A stretch of DNA of 64,000 nt from Hymenobacter sp. HSC-4F20. Lineage in GTDB: Bacteria > Bacteroidota > Bacteroidia > Cytophagales > Hymenobacteraceae. The notes beneath the pieces were generated by a model. The model ran no database searches. It saw only the letters and a program-made list of their open reading frames with translations, and was not told the origin of the DNA. Position 1 is the stretch's first letter. Each line of letters begins with the position of its first letter. Both the position numbers and the translations under genes were made by a program. Shown here in pieces: positions 6,816 to 20,394 of this stretch. The stretch lies in NCBI RefSeq assembly GCF_019599275.1, contig NZ_JAHZTD010000003.1:558001-622000 (forward strand). Reading direction: 5' to 3'.

Positions 6816-7931
6816 TCAGGCCTTAACCAGGTTGCGGTACCGCGCCAATGCTTCCAAGCAAAAACCAGTCGTCATTTCCTCTGAGCCCCACCCCACCACA
6901 AGCTTAGGACCACCGTAGTATAGCAGCCAGCGTGGCCACTCTCCGGTGGCATTCTGCGCGCGCAGAATATACTGTATAGCTGCCTCTAGCTCAGGCGGTT
7001 GGCAGTGCAAATTAAGTAAGCTGCACACTGCCCAGGCTGTATCGGCCAATGTTTCCCCCAAACGGCCATCAGGCTTTGCCAGGGCTAGAATTCGGTCGAT
7101 AATGGGCTGACGCAGAGGTTCCAGTTTGGTAATGCCTGAATAGTAACACCGCGTGAAGGAGTAGTATACGAATAAGGAGTCCCGGTACCACAGGTCGCAG
7201 TTTCCTTCCCGCTTTTCCGCAATGATGCGCAGCAGAAAGGCTATTACCGGCTGGGTTGCCGGAATATCTCCCAGATAATACAGTGCATTGGCATTCACTA
7301 CCCCATCTACGTCACCACGACTAGCCTCTACCCCGTACCAAAACAGCATACTCTGAATTGGATGCAGGAGCTCACGCACCGTTACGCGCCAGAAAGTACG
7401 GCTTGGTATCCAGCGCCAGCGCATAATGAACCAAGAGTAGAATAACCCTTCCCGGTTCCGGTTTGCCAAAAACAGGGGGGCATTCGTTGGTACCGGGCAC
7501 TCAATTCCACGGGCCCGCAGCAGAGCCGATACGCACGCGGTATCGTCGACATCGAGCGGGCAGAGGTGACGCAGCCGGTGAATAGAGGTGAAGTGATTCC
7601 ACAGCCCCCCAAAGTTCATCTGATTTTGCAGGAACAACGTCGTCCGCTTCAGCATCTGATCCGCTGACGGATATTCTGCTACGTGCAATAAGCAATGCGC
7701 AATCAGGGCAGTAGGAAACACTGCGCTGTCAGCATAAATCCAGCCCTGCATGGGGGCGTCACCAGCGCAATAGGATGCAAACTGGCCATCTGCAAACTGG
7801 TGTTGGTGCAAATAGGCCAATGCTTGCTGGATGGCGCAGTCAAGTTGCTCTACTCCAATGGCCGGATTACGCAAAGAGCTTTCTTCCAGTATAGCACTTT
7901 TCTCCTGATTGAATACCGCTGTTTTCAACAT
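6816..7931 (-). CDS. Prenyltransferase/squalene-cyclase repeat protein with DVDDTA motif
   Basis: 371 residues, about half the length of a squalene-hopene cyclase. It looks like an alpha/alpha toroid, with repeat-like segments FADGQFASYCAG (about residue 46), MNFGGLWNHFTS (about 105), KPDGRLGETLADTAWAVCSL (about 290) and NATGEWPRWLLYYGG near the C-terminus. Residues 127-132 are DVDDTA, identical to the catalytic acid motif (DxDD) of squalene-hopene cyclases and close to that of class II diterpene cyclases. There is no signal peptide. Its neighbours are a divergent UbiA prenyltransferase and a GT4 glycosyltransferase, which suggests terpenoid or prenyl-lipid chemistry. Related toroid proteins exist whose substrates are unknown, so the reaction is not assigned. 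Confidence 0.75.
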   Translation of the reverse strand: MLKTAVFNQEKSAILEESSLRNPAIGVEQLDCAIQQALAYLHQHQFADGQFASYCAGDAPMQGWIYADSAVFPTALIAHCLLHVAEYPSADQMLKRTTLFLQNQMNFGGLWNHFTSIHRLRHLCPLDVDDTACVSALLRARGIECPVPTNAPLFLANRNREGLFYSWFIMRWRWIPSRTFWRVTVRELLHPIQSMLFWYGVEASRGDVDGVVNANALYYLGDIPATQPVIAFLLRIIAEKREGNCDLWYRDSLFVYYSFTRCYYSGITKLEPLRQPIIDRILALAKPDGRLGETLADTAWAVCSLLNLHCQPPELEAAIQYILRAQNATGEWPRWLLYYGGPKLVVGWGSEEMTTGFCLEALARYRNLVKA

Positions 7932-8037
7932 GCCCTGAGGTGTATAACTAGCTTAGCTTGCAATTTACCACTTGGTTTTTTGCACAAGGGCATTCTGCCA
8001 TCAATATTAAAAAAATTATAAATCTATGCTACTTCCC

Positions 8038-8045
8038 TATATTTG
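8038..8045 (+). promoter_or_regulatory. -7 box TATATTTG upstream of UbiA gene
   Basis: An exact TAnnTTTG match that overlaps a possible TTG start at 8043. If it is the promoter, transcription begins around 8050, so the TTG cannot be the start and the ATG at 8106 is favoured. Confidence 0.5.
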
Positions 8046-8105
8046 AAGAGAATTTCAATTTATTTACTCAAGTTATTACGCTTGTCTTGCAGCAAGCACC
8101 TTAAA

Positions 8106-9155
8106 ATGGCATACCTACCCTCTGCCTACGTGCAAACGCTAGGCAGGAAATTAACCGAAATCACCCGGGTACAATCGTGGTGGAGTTATAAGTTTTCGCC
8201 TGTCCTAGCTACCTTTTACGCAACTGCCTGCTTTACTGGAGCCCCGGTCTGGCCCTTGGTGCCTAAGCTACTGCTGCTCTTACTCTCCTTGGTAGTAGGC
8301 GCTACCTATGTCAGCGTCATCAACGACTGGACAGACCTGTACGATGACCGTATTGGGGGGAAGTACAACCACATGGCCGGCAAATCAAAAGTGTTTCCGG
8401 CGCTGTTGGTTGCGGGGTGTCTTCTTGTAGGTTTGGGCATGGGTGTCTACTTCTGGCAGTGGAACCCGGCCAGCGGCTGGCTCTACTTAGGGCCCTGGAT
8501 TACCTTTTCGTGTTATTCTCTGCCACCCATCCGGCTGAAAAACCGTGGGTTACTGGGAGTATTAGCTGATGCATCGGGCTCTCACCTTTTTCCTCAGTTG
8601 CTTACCGCTTCGTTAGCGGCCGCCTGGATTGGCCACTCCCTGCCCGTACTCTGGTACGTGGCGTTGGGAGCCTGGGCTTGGGCCTGTGGCATCCGCAACA
8701 TCCTGCGCCATCAGCTCGACGATGTTGAGGCGGATGCAAAAGCCGGCGTTCATACCTGGGTGCGGGTGCGGGGCCCACAGTTCACGCGCCAGATAGGACG
8801 AACAGCTATTTTTCCGATTGAGGTAGTGAGCTTTAGTCTGCTGCTGGTGCTAGGTCAGCAGCTGTGGCCGGTCCTGTTTCTGCTCCCGTACCTGCTTCTG
8901 GAAGGCTTCAAGTGGCGGTTGTGGGGAAACCGGGCTAAAATACTGGATCCACAGGCCCGGGTACTACTCAATGAGTATTACGAGGTATTCTACCCCCTGG
9001 CGCTTCTGCTAACGCTAGCCAGCCACCACCCTGCGGACTTGCTCGTGGTGGGGCTACACTTACTCCTGTTTGCCGGCTGCTTTTGGCAAACTGCTAAATA
9101 CCTGGGCTGGGCAAGCAGCCTAACAATGCGCAAAACCCTACACCGGCTGCAATAA
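8106..9155 (+). CDS. UbiA family prenyltransferase
   Basis: 349 residues from the ATG at 8106; a longer frame from a TTG at 8043 overlaps a promoter-like box. About eight or nine membrane segments. The first Asp-rich motif of the UbiA family is complete (NDWTDLYDD, residues 73-81, NDxxDxxxD), as is the second (DDVEADAKAG, residues 205-214). These bind the prenyl diphosphate through magnesium, so it should be active. UbiA members attach prenyl chains to aromatic or glycerol acceptors, and some cyclise terpenes. The divergent neighbour is a squalene-cyclase-like protein and the convergent neighbour a GT4 enzyme. The 3' end overlaps the GT gene by 18 bases on the opposite strand. Substrate unknown. 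Confidence 0.9.
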   Translation: MAYLPSAYVQTLGRKLTEITRVQSWWSYKFSPVLATFYATACFTGAPVWPLVPKLLLLLLSLVVGATYVSVINDWTDLYDDRIGGKYNHMAGKSKVFPALLVAGCLLVGLGMGVYFWQWNPASGWLYLGPWITFSCYSLPPIRLKNRGLLGVLADASGSHLFPQLLTASLAAAWIGHSLPVLWYVALGAWAWACGIRNILRHQLDDVEADAKAGVHTWVRVRGPQFTRQIGRTAIFPIEVVSFSLLLVLGQQLWPVLFLLPYLLLEGFKWRLWGNRAKILDPQARVLLNEYYEVFYPLALLLTLASHHPADLLVVGLHLLLFAGCFWQTAKYLGWASSLTMRKTLHRLQ

Positions 9156-10409
9156 AGGACTAGCCTTCTGGTACGATTGCCTCGGTAAAGGCGGCGCTTC
9201 ATAGACCATCCTCAGCAGCTTTCCGGCAAACTCTTCCAACGCATTCGCGGGCACAATTGCCCGGGCCTGCCGTGCTGCTTCCGCGCCTATTACAGCCCAA
9301 TTGGCCCGGGCAGCCCAGGCATTTTCCAGTGCCTCATCCAGCGCTTTTACCGTGAGCCCCGCCGCCAGAAAGCCGGTCACACCGTCGGTCAGTAACTCCG
9401 CTATTCCGCCGGCATCAGCCGCAATAGCGGGCCTTCCCGATAACATGGCCTCCACTAAAGCTAAGGGCAGGCCTTCGTAGCGCGAAGGCAATACCAGCGC
9501 ATGGTGGGTACGCCAGACCTGGTCAACCTGGGCCACATGACCGCCAAAACGCACCTGCTGCTGCAGGCCCAGAAACTCCACCATACCGCGCAGGGCCGCT
9601 TCATCGGGGCCGGCCCCGTACAAGGTAAGGAACAGAGGCCGCTGCCGCCACTTGGCCTGGGCTAACGTCTGCAGCAGGATATCCTGGCCTTTGTCAGATA
9701 AGAATAAGCGAGCCACGCACGCTAGACGGAATACGCCATTTTCCTCCGTAGGCCAGGGCAGTTCCCCGTCGAAAGGAACATTGTAAGGGTTTCTGACTAC
9801 CTCAGCCGCCGGCAGTTGCATACCCAGCTGCAGCTGCGTCAGCTCCAGGTTATGCTGGGATACGAAGTAACTACGCCTAGCCTTCCGGTACACCTCCTGC
9901 ACCTGGGCACGCTCAACCGCATAAGGGGCCCGCGAATTGGTGGCCTTTTGGGCTACCAAGGCATAAGGAATTCTTAGTTGACGACAGACGTCGGCAAACA
10001 GGATACCGTCGTAGTTCGCTCCCTGCGAAACGACTACCACGTGCGGTTTAATATCCTGTAGCCGCTTGCGCAACATCTGCTGACTACTCTTTTGCCGGGT
10101 GTACTGCCAGTGGTAAGGCAATAACCGGTTCGTCATGCGGTTAAATAGAGGAGTTGCTCTGTCTAGCTCACTGATACGACACCCTGCTGCCCGCAGCTCA
10201 CCAACCAGCGGCTGGTGCTCGTCTACATTTGTCTTAAATGCATACACGTTGTGCCCGGCTCGCGCCAGCCACAAGGCAGTACCAGCCCACAACTCCTCAC
10301 TTCCGCCCCAGCTTCCATCGCACGAGCTAACAAAAACAATACGTAAGCGGGACGCTTGGACGGCTTTATTGGTAAGTAAAGTAACCACGGAATAGTAGTG
10401 CTCAAGCAT
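9138..10409 (-). CDS. Glycosyltransferase family 4 protein
   Basis: 423 residues with the two-Rossmann GT-B layout. The N-terminal domain has IVFVSSCDGSWGGSEELW, a typical glycine-rich acceptor-side loop. The C-terminal domain has VARLFLSDKGQDILLQTLA, the GAGPDEAALRGMVEFLGL segment, and the nucleotide-sugar binding signature PSRYEGLPLALVEAMLSGRP (the E-x7-E region of GT4). No signal or membrane segment, so it is cytoplasmic or peripheral. The acceptor is unknown. Its convergent overlap with the UbiA gene, and the cyclase-like gene beyond that, raise the possibility that it glycosylates a prenylated product; this is inference only. Confidence 0.9.
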   Translation of the reverse strand: MLEHYYSVVTLLTNKAVQASRLRIVFVSSCDGSWGGSEELWAGTALWLARAGHNVYAFKTNVDEHQPLVGELRAAGCRISELDRATPLFNRMTNRLLPYHWQYTRQKSSQQMLRKRLQDIKPHVVVVSQGANYDGILFADVCRQLRIPYALVAQKATNSRAPYAVERAQVQEVYRKARRSYFVSQHNLELTQLQLGMQLPAAEVVRNPYNVPFDGELPWPTEENGVFRLACVARLFLSDKGQDILLQTLAQAKWRQRPLFLTLYGAGPDEAALRGMVEFLGLQQQVRFGGHVAQVDQVWRTHHALVLPSRYEGLPLALVEAMLSGRPAIAADAGGIAELLTDGVTGFLAAGLTVKALDEALENAWAARANWAVIGAEAARQARAIVPANALEEFAGKLLRMVYEAPPLPRQSYQKASPLLQPV

Positions 10410-10966
10410 TCCAAGGCTGATGGCTCTCTGCTCAGCTCAACTGTATTGCGCCTCGAATATACCTACTCTGCTGCGAATACGCTTAACTAAATCTACCTAT
10501 CTTCCCTAGTACCGCAGTAAGCTAGTGTGTCTAGGATATGCCCAAGAGAACAGTAGCGCAGGCCCGGCCTACCCAGCTGGTAGCCAGCATCTAGCCAAGA
10601 GACATCAACCTGGCTTATCCTCAATGGCCACGACGATAAGTAGCGGACTAATGATACCTTGTGGCTATAGTTTCTTTCGCTCCCAATCCACTCTTGCCTT
10701 AGCTTCCTCGACCATCCCGAGGGAGGCACCTACCGCATATCGTTTCCTACAAGCGCTGTTTTTTCGCTTCAGCCAGCACTTACAGCTACCTCGTAGTTTC
10801 TCTACCTTCAGCAAAGCTCATGCTGTATAGCTGAGCGCTACCCCGGGTAGGCAGCGAGGTACTCTGGTAGCAACTGCCTTCGTTTCTGGGCGAATTTTCA
10901 CGGGAAAGAATTCTTGTATCTTTAGGTTCGAAATTTTGTCCCCTTCCTTTTCTCAACCGTAGTTGC
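10410..10966. other. 557-base gap, no convincing gene
   Basis: Less GC-rich than the flanks. Frames of 60-100 residues occur but show no signal peptide, domain or family resemblance. Near its right end a TATCTTTA element at 10917-10924, 18 bases after a TTTT, loosely resembles a Bacteroidota promoter for the MFS gene. Otherwise I see nothing in it. Confidence 0.5.
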
Positions 10967-15459: not shown

Positions 15460-15506
15460 TTCAGTGTAACTTGGGCCCACATTCTGTTTTAACGCTAAAC
15501 CCTTTC

Positions 15507-16556
15507 ATGCTCCTTCAACGCAACCTTTTGAGCCTGGCCCTCGCTGCCGGTGTCCTGGGCCTCGCCTCCTGCAACAAAGGCGGTGATTTCAGCAAGACGA
15601 AATCGGGGATTGAATACAAAGTTTTCAAAAGCACCGGCGGCAAGTATGACTCCCGCGAGCTTGGCGCCGAAGGAGACCCTACCTACAAAGACCGGGTAGG
15701 CAAAATCATGGCGCTGCACGTGGAATACCGCACGGCCAAGGACTCTATCCTGTTTAACTCGCGCAAGCAACAGATGGGCTTCCCGGTGCGCGTGCCCCTA
15801 GACTCAGTGCGGAAGGAGCAGCGCGGCGGTTTGGAAGAAGCCATTAGCCTGCTGCAACCCGGCGACTCGGCCGTGTTCCGCTTCAATGTGGACAGCATTT
15901 TCGCCAAGTCGTTCCGCCAGCCCGTGCCGCCCTTCATGAAGAAGGCTGGCAACACCATGACCATGTACGTGAAAGTCGACAAGGTGCAGTCGCGCGAGGA
16001 GGCCATGACCGACGTGCAGAAGATGCAGGTGGAGCAGCAGCAAAAGATGATGGCCCACGCCGAAGCGCAGCTCAAGAAAGATGATGTAACGCTGCAGGAT
16101 TACATCAAGAAAAATAACCTGAGCGCCCAGAAAGATGCTTCGGGTGTGTACGTGGCCGTAACGCAGCCCGGTACCGGCCCCAAGCCCAAGCAGGGCCAAG
16201 TGGTATCGGTGCAGTACAAAGGCACCCTGCTCGATGGCAAGGAGTTCGACTCCTCGGCTAAAGGTAACCAGGGCAAGCCCATTGAATTCCCGATTGGCGT
16301 GGGCCAAGTAATTCCGGGCTGGGACAAAGCCATCCCGCTGCTGAACAAAGGCTCGAAAGCCGTACTGCTGATTCCGTCCTCGTTGGCCTACGGACAGCGT
16401 GGGGCCGGCGCCAACATCCCCGCCGACGCTATCCTGCGCTTCGACGTGGAGTTGGTCGACGTGAAGAACGCCCCAGCCGCGCCGGCTGGGCAACCCAACG
16501 CGGCAGATATTCAGCGGCAGATTGAGGAGATGCAACGCCAGCAGCAGGGCCAGTAA
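15507..16556 (+). CDS. FKBP-type prolyl isomerase lipoprotein (array gene 1, two FKBP-like domains)
   Basis: 349 residues from the ATG at 15507, giving a lipoprotein signal peptide (LGLASCNK). An N-terminal domain of about 130 residues has the FKBP outline but a degenerate pocket (GGLEEAISLLQPGD, FAKSFRQPVPPF). A Gln/Met-rich helical linker (QKMQVEQQQKMMAHAEAQ) follows, then a canonical FKBP domain with VQYKGTLLDGKEFDSS, GQVIPGWDKAI, SLAYGQRG and ILRFDVELVDV. The pocket residues of the second domain are intact, so isomerase activity is likely, in the periplasm and lipid-anchored. A Gln-rich tail ends the protein. It follows nrnA and could correspond to a gldI-like gene, though it is longer than the usual GldI. 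Confidence 0.93.
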   Translation: MLLQRNLLSLALAAGVLGLASCNKGGDFSKTKSGIEYKVFKSTGGKYDSRELGAEGDPTYKDRVGKIMALHVEYRTAKDSILFNSRKQQMGFPVRVPLDSVRKEQRGGLEEAISLLQPGDSAVFRFNVDSIFAKSFRQPVPPFMKKAGNTMTMYVKVDKVQSREEAMTDVQKMQVEQQQKMMAHAEAQLKKDDVTLQDYIKKNNLSAQKDASGVYVAVTQPGTGPKPKQGQVVSVQYKGTLLDGKEFDSSAKGNQGKPIEFPIGVGQVIPGWDKAIPLLNKGSKAVLLIPSSLAYGQRGAGANIPADAILRFDVELVDVKNAPAAPAGQPNAADIQRQIEEMQRQQQGQ

Positions 16557-16581
16557 CCCCGTCGCTTAGGTAGTTTCTTGC

Positions 16582-16620
16582 AAAAGCCCCCGGTCCGGTG
16601 CAACCGGGCCGGGGGCTTTT
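16582..16620 (+). terminator. Terminator after array gene 1
   Basis: Stem AAAAGCCCCCGGtCCGGT / ACCGGgCCGGGGGCTTTT with the loop GCA, then more T. It separates array gene 1 from gene 2. Confidence 0.93.
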
Positions 16621-16656
16621 CTACTCTTGAACCCACACGGTTGTTTATTTTTGAGT

Positions 16657-17166
16657 ATGCACACTTCATTTTTCCGTTTGCGGGTAGGGTGGTTACCCGT
16701 TTTTCTGCTAGGCATACTGTTTCTTTCGCTCACTTCGTGTAAGAAAGATGAAGAACAGGTAACCGTTGACTACAGTGCGCGCGACGAAGAAGCCATTAAG
16801 GCCTACATTGCCGAGAATAAGCTTACGGGCTTTCAGCGCGACTCGACGGGCGTATATATCATCATCACCCAGCCAGGGACGGGCGCTACTGCCGTAAAAA
16901 AGCAGAAGGTAACGACCAAGTATGTGGGTACTACTCTCGATGGCACAGTGTTCGACAAAAGCAATCCGGCGGCCATTGGCTTTCAGTTTGTGTTGGGCGT
17001 TGGCGACGTAATCAAGGGCTGGGACCGGGGCTTCACCTACCTCAACAAGGGTAGCAAGGCCATTCTATTGATTCCTTCGGGCCAGGCCTATGCCGAGCAA
17101 GTCGCGGGGTCCATCCCGCCGAATTCTATTCTGCGCTTTGATGTGGAGGTAGTCGACATCAAATAA
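16657..17166 (+). CDS. FKBP-type prolyl isomerase lipoprotein (array gene 2)
   Basis: 169 residues from the ATG at 16657; a TTG at 16627 would place extra residues before the signal peptide. Lipobox SLTSCKK. A conserved lead-in (VDYSARDEEAIKAYIAENKL, then TGFQRDSTGVY, ITQPGTGA) precedes one FKBP domain: TKYVGTTLDGTVFDKS, GDVIKGWDRGF, then SGQAYAEQV where the usual AYG loop has lost its glycine, and ILRFDVEVVDI. Mostly intact pocket, so probably active. The same lead-in occurs twice in array gene 3, showing common descent by local duplication. A TATTTTTG box at 16646-16653 is very close to the start and may be its promoter. Confidence 0.92.
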   Translation: MHTSFFRLRVGWLPVFLLGILFLSLTSCKKDEEQVTVDYSARDEEAIKAYIAENKLTGFQRDSTGVYIIITQPGTGATAVKKQKVTTKYVGTTLDGTVFDKSNPAAIGFQFVLGVGDVIKGWDRGFTYLNKGSKAILLIPSGQAYAEQVAGSIPPNSILRFDVEVVDIK

Positions 17167-17260
17167 AGCTGCCCTTACAACTCATTACTGGCAGGTGACT
17201 CGGCTGGCTTTGCCGCCAGTCACCGCGCTAGATACCGCTTTAGTCCTTCCTCTCTATTCT

Positions 17261-18163
17261 ATGCACACTGCTTTTTCTCCCTCCCCACTAGCTCGGTTGC
17301 TTCTGGTACTGCTGGGCTTATCTACGCTGCTGTTAGGGGCCTGTCAGAAGGAAGATACTATCGACTACGCCGCCCGCGACGAGGCAACGATTCAGCAGTA
17401 CCTCACTGACAACAAGCTTACGGGCTTTCAACGGCAGTCCTCGGGACTGTACCTAGCCATTACGCAGCCGGGTACCGGAGCCCTGGCTCAGAGAAACCAG
17501 TGGGTATCGGCCAAGTACAGTGCTAGCTTACTGGATGGCAAAGTGGTTGACAGCAACACTTCTTCCTACCGTCTACTGGATTTTGCCCTAGGCCAGAATA
17601 CGATGATTCCGGGCTGGGAGGAAGGGTTCACCCACCTCAACAAAGGGGCTAAAGCGACCTTCCTGGTTCCTTCTGGCTTGGCTTACGGAGAAATCGGGGC
17701 CGGTCCAATTCCGCCCAATACCGTCCTGCGCTTCGACGTGGAGGTCGTGGACATTGCCAGCTCAATCGACTACGCCGCCCGCGACGAAGCAACGATTCAG
17801 CAGTATATTGCTGACAAGAAGCTTACCGGCTTTCAGCGGCAGCCCTCGGGCTTGTACGTGGCCATTACGCAGCCGGGCACTGGCACTGCTATCCAAAAAG
17901 GCCAAAGGGCTTCGGCCCTGTACACCGGCACTACTCTGGACGGGCAGGTGTTTGATACTACTAAGCCAGCCAGCCCATTCTCCTTCACGGTGGGTACCGG
18001 ACAGGTAATAGCTGGTTGGGATGAAGGGTTTACCTTGTTGAACAAAGGCAGTAAAGCTATTCTGCTGTTGCCCTCCAACCTGGCCTACGGAAACCGAGCC
18101 ATCAGTGCGCTTCCGGCTAACTCCATTCTACGTTTCGATGTAGAAGTAACTGATGTCAAGTAA
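17261..18163 (+). CDS. Tandem FKBP-type prolyl isomerase lipoprotein (array gene 3)
   Basis: 300 residues from the ATG at 17261, with lipobox LLLGACQK; a GTG at 17195 is less likely because it would bury the signal peptide. It contains two FKBP units, each opening with nearly the same phrase (IDYAARDEATIQQY, then KLTGFQRQ and ITQPGTG), so it arose by internal duplication. The first domain has a changed pocket (KVVDSN in place of the usual F-D-S, and MIPGW), while the second has QVFDTT, QVIAGWDEGF and LAYGNR. Activity may therefore reside mainly in the second unit. Probably a lipid-anchored periplasmic folding factor. Confidence 0.92.
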   Translation: MHTAFSPSPLARLLLVLLGLSTLLLGACQKEDTIDYAARDEATIQQYLTDNKLTGFQRQSSGLYLAITQPGTGALAQRNQWVSAKYSASLLDGKVVDSNTSSYRLLDFALGQNTMIPGWEEGFTHLNKGAKATFLVPSGLAYGEIGAGPIPPNTVLRFDVEVVDIASSIDYAARDEATIQQYIADKKLTGFQRQPSGLYVAITQPGTGTAIQKGQRASALYTGTTLDGQVFDTTKPASPFSFTVGTGQVIAGWDEGFTLLNKGSKAILLLPSNLAYGNRAISALPANSILRFDVEVTDVK

Positions 18164-18214
18164 ATTAAGTCCGGACAACATACTCAGGAGTCCGTTACCT
18201 TTTGCGTTTACCCC

Positions 18215-18757
18215 ATGAAAAAGTTTGCGCTGGCCCTTTCCCTGCTGGCCCTGCCGCTCCTGACCGCGCCGGCTCTCACCAGCTGCAACACGGAGCCCGA
18301 CCACATCAAGAACGCCCGAAAGCTGGAGGAAGATCAGAAAAAGGCGGACGACCTCACCATTCAGGCTTACCTCACGCGGCACAGCATTACGAACTACTCC
18401 CGCCTGGAGTCTGGGATTTACCTAGTGCCCGTCACGGACGGCCCCACCAGCAACCCCCTGATTAAAGCAGGTAACAAGGTGACCATGGTGCACGTCGGGA
18501 AATTCATCGGTGAGAAGAATGACGGTCAGGTATTCGAAGCTTCCAGCGAAAACCGGTCTGTATGCGGGTGCATCGGCTTCGTGAATGGCCAGAATGGGGT
18601 TGTTCCGGGCTGGAACACCGCTACCCTGCAGATGCGGAAAGGTGACCGTAAGCTGATTCTGATTCCTTCATACTTAGCATACGGTACCATTGGCTCCAGT
18701 GCCATTCCATCTAACACGCCACTGCTGTACGACATCGAAATCACCGACGTACAATAA
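18215..18757 (+). CDS. Divergent FKBP-like lipoprotein (array gene 4)
   Basis: 180 residues with a lipoprotein signal (APALTSCNTE). A charged helix (KNARKLEEDQKKADD) leads into a single FKBP-like domain. Key pocket positions have changed: the tyrosine of the V-x-Y-x-G strand is replaced (TMVHVGKF), FD is FE (QVFEASSEN), and a CGC motif is inserted (RSVCGCIGF), while GVVPGWNTA and LAYGTIG persist. Catalysis is doubtful and it may instead be a binding chaperone. It lies 51 bases after array gene 3 and 30 bases before array gene 5, suggesting one transcript. Confidence 0.88.
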   Translation: MKKFALALSLLALPLLTAPALTSCNTEPDHIKNARKLEEDQKKADDLTIQAYLTRHSITNYSRLESGIYLVPVTDGPTSNPLIKAGNKVTMVHVGKFIGEKNDGQVFEASSENRSVCGCIGFVNGQNGVVPGWNTATLQMRKGDRKLILIPSYLAYGTIGSSAIPSNTPLLYDIEITDVQ

Positions 18758-18787
18758 GACCGTTATTTCGTAGCCATTCCCTTCCTC

Positions 18788-19264
18788 ATGCAGCACTGGC
18801 AATATGGCATTTTAGCACTGGCAGCAGGTCTGTCCCCCTTGACGGTAGTGGCCCAGCAGGTGCTGCCGGTAGCGGTGCCCACAGCCGATACGCTGCTACC
18901 CCGCGCCACCACTACCGCTTCCGGCCTGCGCTACCTGATTCGGCAGCCGGGAAGCGGCCCCACAGCCCGGCCCGGCGACAAGGTTTCGGTTCAGTACACC
19001 GGGTTTCTCCCCGATGGGCACATCTTTGATGCATCTGCCAAGCAGGGCGGGCCGCTGAAAGTGCGCGCTGGCCGGGGCGAAGTAGTGCGCGGCTGGGACG
19101 AAATGCTGCTGCTGCTACCTCAGGGGAGCCGGGCGCGGGTCTGGATTCCGGCCGCGCTGGGCTACGGGGCCGAAGGACGGCGGGACCCGGACGACGAGCG
19201 GCGCTACCTCATCCCGCCCAATGCCGACTTGGTGTTTGAGCTGGAAGTGCTGAAAGTAAAATAA
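18788..19264 (+). CDS. Periplasmic FKBP-type prolyl isomerase (array gene 5)
   Basis: 158 residues with a cleavable-type signal peptide (ALAAGLSPLTVVAQQ) and no lipobox cysteine, unlike most of its neighbours. The single FKBP domain is close to canonical: GLRYLIRQPGSGPTA, VQYTGFLPDGHIFDAS, GEVVRGWDEM, LGYGAEGR and LVFELEVLKV. Probably a soluble periplasmic isomerase. It follows array gene 4 after 30 bases and is closed by a hairpin terminator. Confidence 0.93.
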   Translation: MQHWQYGILALAAGLSPLTVVAQQVLPVAVPTADTLLPRATTTASGLRYLIRQPGSGPTARPGDKVSVQYTGFLPDGHIFDASAKQGGPLKVRAGRGEVVRGWDEMLLLLPQGSRARVWIPAALGYGAEGRRDPDDERRYLIPPNADLVFELEVLKVK

Positions 19265-19266
19265 CC

Positions 19267-19307
19267 GCTGACCCAAGGGCACCCCGCCGTTGGGTCAGCT
19301 TGTTTTT
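19267..19307 (+). terminator. Terminator after array gene 5
   Basis: Stem GCTGACCCAA / TTGGGTCAGC around a 13-base loop, followed by TTGTTTTT. Confidence 0.85.
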
Positions 19308-19413
19308 AGCTCTTCCAACTAGGTATAACCAACCCGTAGGCTGTAGTGCCCTGCCCGGCTTGGACTGTCGGCCCCGAAATCCGACTTAACTTGACCGTCT
19401 GACGTTATTCTGT

Positions 19414-20394
19414 ATGTGGCTTTCTTCCTCCCGCCTGCTTTTCTCACCTCCTGTCCTCCTCCTCCTGCTTGGGGTGCTCATCCTCACGGGCTTCCAAGAG
19501 AAGCCACCGGGCTTTAATAAGCTGAAATCGGGCTTGGAGTACCGGATTTATCACCGCGAAAACGGCCGCTACGTGCTGCGCCCGGCCTTATCCCCCGCCG
19601 GCGACCCCGCGTACGCTGCCCGCGTGGGCCGCATTATGAGCCTGCATCTGGAGTTTCGCACTGCCACTGACTCGGTGTTGATGCACTCGCGCCGGCAGGG
19701 CGGAGGCCGGCCCGTACGGGTACCCCTAGACACGATTCGGCGCCAGCAGGTAGGGGGAGTGGAAGAAGCGCTTTCGCTGCTGCAACCCGGCGATTCAGGG
19801 GTGTTTCGCCTGAATGTGGACACGGTGTTTGCCAAGTCGTTCCGCCAGCCGGTACCGCCCTTCCTTCACAAAGCAGGCTCTACCCTCACGGTGCTGGCCA
19901 AGGCCGAGAAAATTCAGACGGAGGCGGAGGTTCTGCAGGAAATCCAGCAACAAAGAGCCCAGGCGCAGGAGCAGGCCAAAAAGCAAGCTGCTCAGCAGGC
20001 CCTGAAGGATGATGCCCGCATTCAGGCCTATCTGAAGCAGAACAAGCTGAAAGCCCTGAAAACCCCAGGCGGCGTGTACTACGTCATCACCAAAGCCGGC
20101 ACCGGTCTGAAGCCCAAGAAAGGCCAAACGGTATCGGTGCTCTACAAAGGCTTGCTGCTGAGTGGGAAAGTGTTCGACTCGTCGGAGAATAACGGCAACC
20201 AGCCCATTACGTTTCCGCTGGGGGCCGGCCAGGTGATTCCCGGCTGGGACCAGGGTATTGCCATGCTCACCAAGGGTAGCAAAGCCATCCTACTGATTCC
20301 ATCAGGCCTAGCCTACGGGCCACGCGGGGCCGGAGCCGATATTCCACCTAATTCCGTGCTGCGCTTCAACGTGGAAGTGGTTGGGATACAGTAA
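19414..20394 (+). CDS. FKBP-type prolyl isomerase with degenerate N-terminal domain (array gene 6)
   Basis: 326 residues, a paralogue of array gene 1 with the same layout: degenerate N-terminal FKBP-like domain (GRIMSLHLEFRTATDSVL, GGVEEALSLLQPGD, FAKSFRQPVPPF), a helical Gln/Ala-rich linker (QQQRAQAQEQAKKQAAQQ), then a canonical domain (VLYKGLLLSGKVFDSS, GQVIPGWDQGI, GLAYGPRG, VLRFNVEVV). Unlike gene 1 the hydrophobic N-terminus (VLLLLLGVLILTGFQEK) has no cysteine, so it is either secreted or membrane-tethered. The C-terminal pocket is intact, so activity is likely. A long perfect hairpin follows. Confidence 0.93.
   Translation: MWLSSSRLLFSPPVLLLLLGVLILTGFQEKPPGFNKLKSGLEYRIYHRENGRYVLRPALSPAGDPAYAARVGRIMSLHLEFRTATDSVLMHSRRQGGGRPVRVPLDTIRRQQVGGVEEALSLLQPGDSGVFRLNVDTVFAKSFRQPVPPFLHKAGSTLTVLAKAEKIQTEAEVLQEIQQQRAQAQEQAKKQAAQQALKDDARIQAYLKQNKLKALKTPGGVYYVITKAGTGLKPKKGQTVSVLYKGLLLSGKVFDSSENNGNQPITFPLGAGQVIPGWDQGIAMLTKGSKAILLIPSGLAYGPRGAGADIPPNSVLRFNVEVVGIQ

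Follow-up and report, generated by a model that had tools for sequence, protein, structure and literature searches.

A standalone class II terpene cyclase domain linked to a UbiA prenyltransferase and a GT4 glycosyltransferase in Hymenobacter: candidate core of a glycosylated terpenoid pathway

A 64,000-nucleotide stretch of the 5.3 Mb genome of Hymenobacter sp. HSC-4F20 (contig NZ_JAHZTD010000003.1, positions 558,001 to 622,000; hereafter the window) carries three adjacent intact genes at 6816-10409, encoding a small toroid protein of the class II terpene cyclase type, a UbiA-superfamily enzyme and a GT4-family glycosyltransferase. We propose that this trio is probably the core of a pathway leading to a cyclic terpenoid or meroterpenoid that carries sugar. 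The proposal is backed directly by gene integrity, family membership, fold, catalytic residues, linkage and co-evolution, while we infer which reaction each enzyme carries out on a shared molecule, in what order, which acceptor and chain length are used and where the product ends up. The locus had been singled out in an earlier reading of the DNA letters (the original prediction), and its positions match those found here by reading the open reading frames.

Layout and integrity of the locus

The trio is arranged in the window as follows.

6816..7931, minus strand: predicted one-domain class II terpene cyclase, an alpha/alpha toroid of the beta-domain type (371 aa); Pfam SQHop_cyclase_C 6.2e-7, profile search of the PDB and AlphaFold2 model
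7932..8105, no strand: intergenic region of 174 bp common to the divergent cyclase and UbiA genes; sequence
8106..9155, plus strand: UbiA-superfamily intramembrane prenyltransferase, 349 aa; Pfam UbiA 8.2e-17 and orthologues
9138..10409, minus strand: GT4-family glycosyltransferase, 423 aa; Pfam Glyco_trans_1_4 8e-28, orthologue in 24 of 25 toroid loci

The toroid and UbiA genes are divergent, and the UbiA and GT4 genes are convergent, with 3' ends that overlap by 18 nt. The mechanical start of the UbiA reading frame is a TTG at 8043; the ATG at 8106, which gives the 349-residue protein, is the best-supported start because homologues align from it. The Pfam matches of the three proteins (UbiA 8e-17, GT4 8e-28, SQHop_cyclase_C 6e-7) each exceed the family cut-off. 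When the window was compared with a relative of ~80% amino-acid identity, the ratios of nonsynonymous to synonymous substitution rates (dN/dS) were 0.08, 0.10 and 0.11 for the trio genes, which indicates clear purifying selection on each of them; two housekeeping neighbors gave 0.02-0.05 in the same comparison. These are not chance open reading frames. The original prediction had described a 371-residue toroid protein with DVDDTA at residues 127-132, divergent from an intact UbiA enzyme (NDWTDLYDD and DDVEADAKAG) that is in turn convergent with the GT4 gene, and each of these elements was found.

The toroid protein

The toroid protein is, by its predicted structure, a standalone class II terpene cyclase beta-domain, for which cyclase activity is predicted. 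A search of the PDB with the single sequence was weak, the best match being a drimenol synthase (E 0.12). A family profile was built from a 25-member alignment, which also served for the AlphaFold2 model. This profile retrieved AsDMS, the drimenol synthase of Aquimarina spongiae (HAD-TCbeta; PDB 9mhs, 9m7f), at 8.4e-14, squalene-hopene cyclase at 7e-9, fungal AstC at 3e-6 and the monodomain protein 8pak at 3e-5; the only match other than a terpene cyclase was one designed repeat (E 0.79). MstE, a characterized monodomain class II cyclase (PMC9401909), was not among the matches of this profile search of the PDB. The model has a mean predicted local distance difference test score (pLDDT) of 91.6 and a predicted template modeling score (pTM) of 0.89, and replaced an earlier one made from 14 sequences (pLDDT 79.5). 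AsDMS was the top Foldseek match of the model (2.8e-14), and VIA-align gave Z values of 35.0 for AsDMS (302 residues aligned, 2.8 Å), 29.9 for MstE (6sbc; 309 aligned, 3.4 Å) and 28.8 for squalene-hopene cyclase. The best toroid outside the terpene cyclases was GH105 (Z 21.7), with sugar epimerases and GH105 enzymes lying at about 21.

Pfam and NCBIfam scans found no HAD domain in the protein, all 371 residues of which belong to the toroid. The squalene-hopene cyclase equivalog model TIGR01507 scores 30.5 bits against a cut-off of 431, and the protein has a single domain in place of the two-domain beta-gamma architecture. Taken together, the profile matches, the AlphaFold2 model, the Foldseek search and the VIA-align Z values point to a standalone class II beta-domain, not to half an enzyme; its single alpha/alpha toroid is that of the monodomain class II cyclases of the MstE type. 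The original prediction had regarded the protein, at half the size of known class II cyclases, as a minimal version. It is neither new as such nor unusually small, as monodomain class II cyclases of ~350 residues are already known (MstE, 8paj, 8pak). Comparison of the predicted structure with known cyclases, a check that the original prediction had named, nevertheless agrees with the cyclase assignment made there, giving the class II beta-domain fold with the Asp pair and the Tyr aligned with those of drimenol synthase.

Catalytic residues, head-group pocket and the order of the reactions

Three elements of the toroid gene bear on its predicted chemistry.

7536..7553, minus strand: DVDDTA motif (residues 127-132), in which all 25 homologues keep D127 and D129, with D129 the presumed general acid; alignment with AsDMS D331/D333
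7305..7319, minus strand: R-x-D-x-D (R205, D207, D209); D207 and D209 invariant, R205 aligned with AsDMS R378; alignments
7185..7190, minus strand: W248-Y249; Y249, kept in all homologues, is the counterpart of AsDMS Y427 (general-acid partner), W248 in place of AsDMS Y426; alignments

The residue equivalences with AsDMS are drawn from sequence alignment at ~19% identity. D127, D129 and Y249, which are invariant across the 25 homologues, correspond to AsDMS D331, D333 and Y427, each of which is essential, mutation abolishing activity (PMC12365925). The protein thus carries a DxDD/DxDxT motif (DVDDTA) whose middle Asp would be the general acid, along with the Tyr partner as placed by the alignment. 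The fourth position of the motif is variable, reading DVDNT or DVDST in Pedobacter copies, as in DxDTT enzymes, and the middle Asp is constant. From the alignment, the DVDD side chains would be expected to point inward, with the Asp pair lining a closed hydrophobic cavity.

AsDMS contacts the diphosphate through Y373, R378, R380, R425, Y426 and R513, and the toroid protein has W167, R205, D207, L247, W248 and K343 at these positions, so that one residue is identical (R205) and one is basic for basic (K343). In AsDMS, Y373 and Y426 are essential for phosphate recognition and mutation of R378 causes a 96% loss of activity (PMC12365925). Replacement of the phosphate contacts by W167, W248, D207 and L247 favors a chain bound to an acceptor over a free diphosphate. 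This suggests that the head group of the substrate is probably not a bare diphosphate and that prenylation precedes cyclization, as in MstE.

The main rival explanation reverses this order: the toroid protein would cyclize a free prenyl diphosphate, as in drimenyl- or copalyl-type reactions, the UbiA enzyme would transfer the cyclized group, and the GT4 enzyme would glycosylate the acceptor. The closest solved relative of the toroid protein, AsDMS, does cyclize farnesyl diphosphate, the functionally important R378 has its counterpart in R205 and R513 has one in K343. Tuberculosinyl adenosine offers a precedent for cyclization followed by transfer, since Rv3377c and Rv3378c are thought to act in this way (PMC11476799). 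Since both essential phosphate-contact tyrosines are Trp in the toroid protein, and R380 and R425 are Asp and Leu, we consider the reverse order unlikely, if worth keeping in view.

Conservation and linkage of the trio

The conserved adjacency that the original prediction had named as a test is confirmed, in other Bacteroidota families as well. We read 25 toroid loci from Hymenobacter, five Pedobacter genomes, one genome of the same class (G195) and one that shares only the phylum (G165). A UbiA gene lies nearby in 24 of these and a GT4 gene in 24; all three genes are present in 23, where they lie within 3.2-8.8 kb. The two incomplete loci are L046, where the contig ends before a GT4 gene, and L040, described below. 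Among 120 Hymenobacter genomes, an intact toroid gene was found in 18 and a trio-type UbiA gene in 22; the 17 genomes that have both always have them within ~6 kb (Fisher p 2e-15, a value that ignores shared ancestry). The named relatives that carry the toroid gene are Hymenobacter species; H. rigui and H. metallicola are examples with the trio.

The protein distance matrices of the trio correlate with one another at r 0.87-0.96, values reached in none of 2000 permutations. The three genes evolve together under purifying selection. They can also be lost together: in one genome (G506) the segment matching window positions 7036-10878 is gone, the flanks are 83-85% identical and a toroid stub of ~70 residues remains at the site. 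A close toroid homologue occurs in ~4 of 395 sampled genomes of the phylum, indicating that the system is rare and patchy.

Several other toroid genes were seen in passing. L006:1468-2901 and L034:7767-9347 encode remote homologues; the L006 protein, which retains DSDDTA and DLDGVVNANVL motifs, starts with what looks like a signal peptide, and this suggests an exported protein and perhaps a non-cyclase branch. At L030:1803-2762, a toroid protein of ~31% identity is encoded near ABC (ATP-binding cassette) exporter genes that resemble a peptide-export (NHLP/HlyD-type) set. A second, decayed toroid copy (L049; G501 contig 1, ~1846333-1846754) adjoins two Acyl_transf_3-like genes and one ABC-2 permease-like gene.

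The UbiA and GT4 enzymes

Both Asp-rich motifs of the UbiA superfamily are conserved in the trio enzyme.

8322..8348, plus strand: motif I, NDWTDLYDD (NDxxDxxxD), in 29/29 copies; motif scan
8709..8735, plus strand: motif II, HQLDDVEAD (HQxxDxxxD), in 29/29 copies; motif scan

The enzyme belongs to the prenyltransferases by its Pfam match (61.8 bits against a cut-off of 34.2) and by these two motifs. Orthologues are 60-68% identical in most Hymenobacter loci that have the bare trio, 81% identical in G470 and 32% identical in the most distant locus. Prenyltransferases of the superfamily are defined by NDxxDxxxD and DxxxD, and UbiA-type terpene synthases by Nxxx(G/A)xxxD and QDxxDxxxD (PMC9835599); on sequence, the motifs of the trio enzyme fit the former. 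This weighs on the suggestion that the enzyme is a class I terpene synthase of the UbiA type, which would further cyclize the diphosphate made by the toroid protein before the GT4 enzyme glycosylates a terpene alcohol. Such enzymes exist (PMC9835599), but all 29 copies have NDxxDxxxD, with D at the G/A position, and HQxxDxxxD without the QD pair. On these motifs the terpene synthase was ruled out, and we regard it as extremely improbable.

Against the NCBIfam subfamilies, the trio enzyme matches weakly to PRK12875, chlorophyll synthase, homogentisate phytyltransferase and the DGGGP type. The best match (40.8 bits against a cut-off of 205) is far below threshold, as is each of the others for its own curated subfamily. 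It could also be supposed that the enzyme is a polyprenyl-phosphate phosphoribosyltransferase that provides glycan assembly with a lipid-linked pentose donor, with the toroid gene merely co-located. This point is relevant because phosphoribosyl-type UbiA enzymes do occur in Wzm/Wzt glycan (O-antigen) loci (PMC11127046), and four Hymenobacter loci combine UbiA, Wzm and Wzt genes without a toroid gene. The scan covered 15 distinct trio-type UbiA proteins, however, and none of them matches the decaprenyl-phosphate phosphoribosyltransferase model PRK12324; what weak scores they have are to chlorophyll synthase, homogentisate phytyltransferase and PRK12875. The second UbiA protein of the Pedobacter cluster (L013), which serves as an internal positive control, matches that model at 2e-19. 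The phosphoribosyl type was ruled out on this basis, and the idea appears very unlikely.

The catalytic domain of the GT4 enzyme is recognized by PF13692 (97.9 bits) and PF00534 (91.8 bits).

Extended clusters in relatives

In many relatives, a larger cluster has formed around the trio, with a GT2 gene, a Wzm/Wzt-type exporter and an acyltransferase-P450 fusion, which is not visible from the window alone. The order in the long Hymenobacter clusters (L012/L033, L041-L046 and L031) is GT4 - GT2 - UbiA - ABC-2 permease - (acyltransferase-P450 fusion) - ABC ATPase - toroid - (Acyl_transf_3); the ABC ATPase has a weak Pfam match to Wzt_C. In G165 the order is toroid - a weak sulfotransferase match - acyltransferase-P450 - GT4 - GT2 - UbiA, and in G195 it is ABC exporter - GT4 - toroid - UbiA - GT2. 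The Pedobacter loci have the trio amid an ABC exporter, an FdtA/QdtA-type sugar isomerase and a DegT aminotransferase, and adjoin the end of a nonribosomal peptide synthetase (NRPS) gene. The bare trio alone is found in the window and in seven close relatives. A search of the window's genome (G000) for the extended-cluster genes elsewhere yielded just generic ABC ATPases and a weak P450 match, so the trio there stands without the extended set.

The fusion protein, kept inside the extended cluster, joins a polyketide synthase-type acyltransferase (PF00698) to a cytochrome P450 (PF00067) in ~750 aa. It is found at L012:6439-8694 and L029:11993-14236, and also in L041, L043, L044 and L046, and the copy in one distant genome is still ~30% identical. 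In several Pedobacter genomes, as at L013:5-2046, an NRPS terminal piece (peptidyl carrier protein-thioesterase) and an apparent phosphopantetheinyl transferase gene lie immediately upstream of the cluster.

The surroundings of these clusters raise the question of whether the toroid protein acts on a glycan, or is structural, in a surface-polysaccharide locus, resembling GH105 or a sugar epimerase while the UbiA and GT4 enzymes take part in glycan assembly. The Pedobacter and long Hymenobacter clusters hold many glycosyltransferases, QdtA/DegT sugar enzymes and Wzm/Wzt-type transporters, and sugar epimerases and GH105 enzymes share the toroid. Yet the Z value of 35 for AsDMS compares with 21.7 for the best such protein, the sequence profile finds terpene cyclases in the PDB, the catalytic Asp pair and Tyr are invariant, and the extended cluster includes a P450. 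A glycan-acting toroid was rejected as the leading explanation, the AsDMS (35) and MstE (~30) values exceeding those of sugar epimerases and GH105 by 8-13 Z units with the catalytic residues conserved; we hold it to be quite improbable.

A model for the pathway

The data presented above have led us to propose a model in which the UbiA enzyme would prenylate a polar acceptor at the membrane, with a chain that is probably C15-C20 or longer. The toroid protein, to which we assign the cyclization step because of its fold and residues, would then protonate the distal double bond of this chain, with D129 as the acid, and the rings would close by a carbocation cascade. Glycosylation by the GT4 enzyme would follow. 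Where relatives have the long cluster, the GT2 enzyme would add a further sugar, the acyltransferase-P450 fusion (oxidation, acylation) and further acyltransferases would decorate the molecule, and the ABC exporter would then export it. A prenyltransferase followed by a cyclase has precedents in MstE, which acts on geranylgeranyl-dihydroxybenzoate (PMC9401909), and in the fungal pathways of a UbiA enzyme followed by Pyr4 (PMC10882540). The putative scheme put forward in the original prediction (prenylate an acceptor, cyclize the chain, add a sugar) is the best reading and is supported in part.

A few observations weigh against this model. Five Hymenobacter genomes have a trio-type UbiA gene without a toroid gene: in four loci (L035, L036, L037 and L038) the order is methyltransferase - Wzt - Wzm - UbiA with no GT4 gene, and in the fifth it is GT4 - GT2 - UbiA - Wzt. 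The UbiA product may therefore also be used uncyclized, and its partnership with the toroid protein is strong, not absolute. Conversely, G471 (L040:8207-10424) has toroid and GT4 genes and lacks the UbiA gene; the two overlap in different frames with no UbiA gene between them, and the toroid protein is short by ~27 N-terminal residues. No acceptor-biosynthesis gene is recognizable in the minimal trio. Finally, the GT4 enzyme may act on a glycan instead of a terpenoid, because the Pedobacter and long Hymenobacter clusters resemble glycan-export loci. As a side observation, the loci L035-L038 possibly represent the same lipid pathway without cyclization.

A more ambitious and decidedly tentative extension of the model is that the product is a cell-surface glycolipid or glycan of a new class, anchored or capped by a cyclized terpenoid. 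The UbiA enzyme and the monodomain cyclase would build the terpenoid and the GT4 and GT2 enzymes would lengthen it; in relatives, a Wzm/Wzt-type exporter with the acyltransferase-P450 fusion would finish and export it.

Relation to known systems

AsDMS, also from a member of the Bacteroidota, is closest to the toroid protein both among solved folds and in the profile search, and has the same Asp pair and acid-partner Tyr. The toroid protein differs in having no fused HAD phosphatase, in the replacement of most phosphate-binding Tyr/Arg contacts and in its UbiA and GT4 partners. MstE (merosterolic acid synthase of Scytonema; PDB 6sbb-6sbg) is likewise a monodomain class II cyclase, equal in size and fold, and the chain it cyclizes has been joined to an aromatic acceptor beforehand; it is ~16% identical to the toroid protein. 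We know of no link between MstE and a GT4 enzyme or an exporter. Squalene-hopene cyclase (Alicyclobacillus; 1sqc/2sqc) shares the DxDD chemistry and the beta-domain fold but is a two-domain enzyme of ~630 aa that acts on squalene, whereas the toroid protein has one domain. Chlorophyll synthase, homogentisate phytyltransferase, DGGGP synthase and PRK12875 share the Pfam UbiA domain and both Asp-rich motifs with the trio UbiA enzyme, which scores far below the cut-off of each of these curated subfamilies.

The tuberculosinyl adenosine pathway (Rv3377c/Rv3378c) also links a class II cyclase to a prenyl-transferring enzyme to yield a terpenoid conjugate, but has neither a UbiA nor a GT4 enzyme, and its cyclase has two domains. 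The ebo operon (EboA-F), conserved in Bacteroidota as well as in other bacteria, includes an orphan UbiA protein for an uncharacterized prenylated metabolite (PMC5133447). It contains no cyclase or GT4 gene, and its other gene types are not in the trio. It was ruled out on gene content, as no partner gene of the ebo type (a six-gene set around EboC, PMC5133447) was recognized beside the trio.

No description of a UbiA-cyclase-GT4 cluster was found in the open-access literature. One-domain class II cyclases and UbiA meroterpenoid chemistry are already known; the UbiA-cyclase-GT4(-P450-exporter) cluster is new, as is a subfamily of standalone TCbeta enzymes in Bacteroidota whose head-group pocket is altered and which is tied to UbiA and GT4 enzymes and, in relatives, to an exporter and the acyltransferase-P450 fusion. 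Very few one-domain class II cyclases have been characterized, and a whole subfamily is at hand here, offering small class II cyclases as biocatalysts. A link of class II terpene cyclization to ABC-dependent glycan export, if true, is one for which we found no description, and the cluster allows a direct test of terpenoid cyclization as part of surface glycolipid assembly. According to a study of one Hymenobacter strain, only pigments have been isolated as secondary metabolites from the genus (PMC11925752); the cluster points to an unexplored class of glycosylated terpenoids.

A neighboring gene array

Elsewhere in the window, six tandem open reading frames on the plus strand (15471-20394) resemble FKBP-type peptidyl-prolyl isomerases, as assigned by eye, and one of them contains two units. 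Several have lipoprotein-like N-termini, and the array has the appearance of a local amplification.

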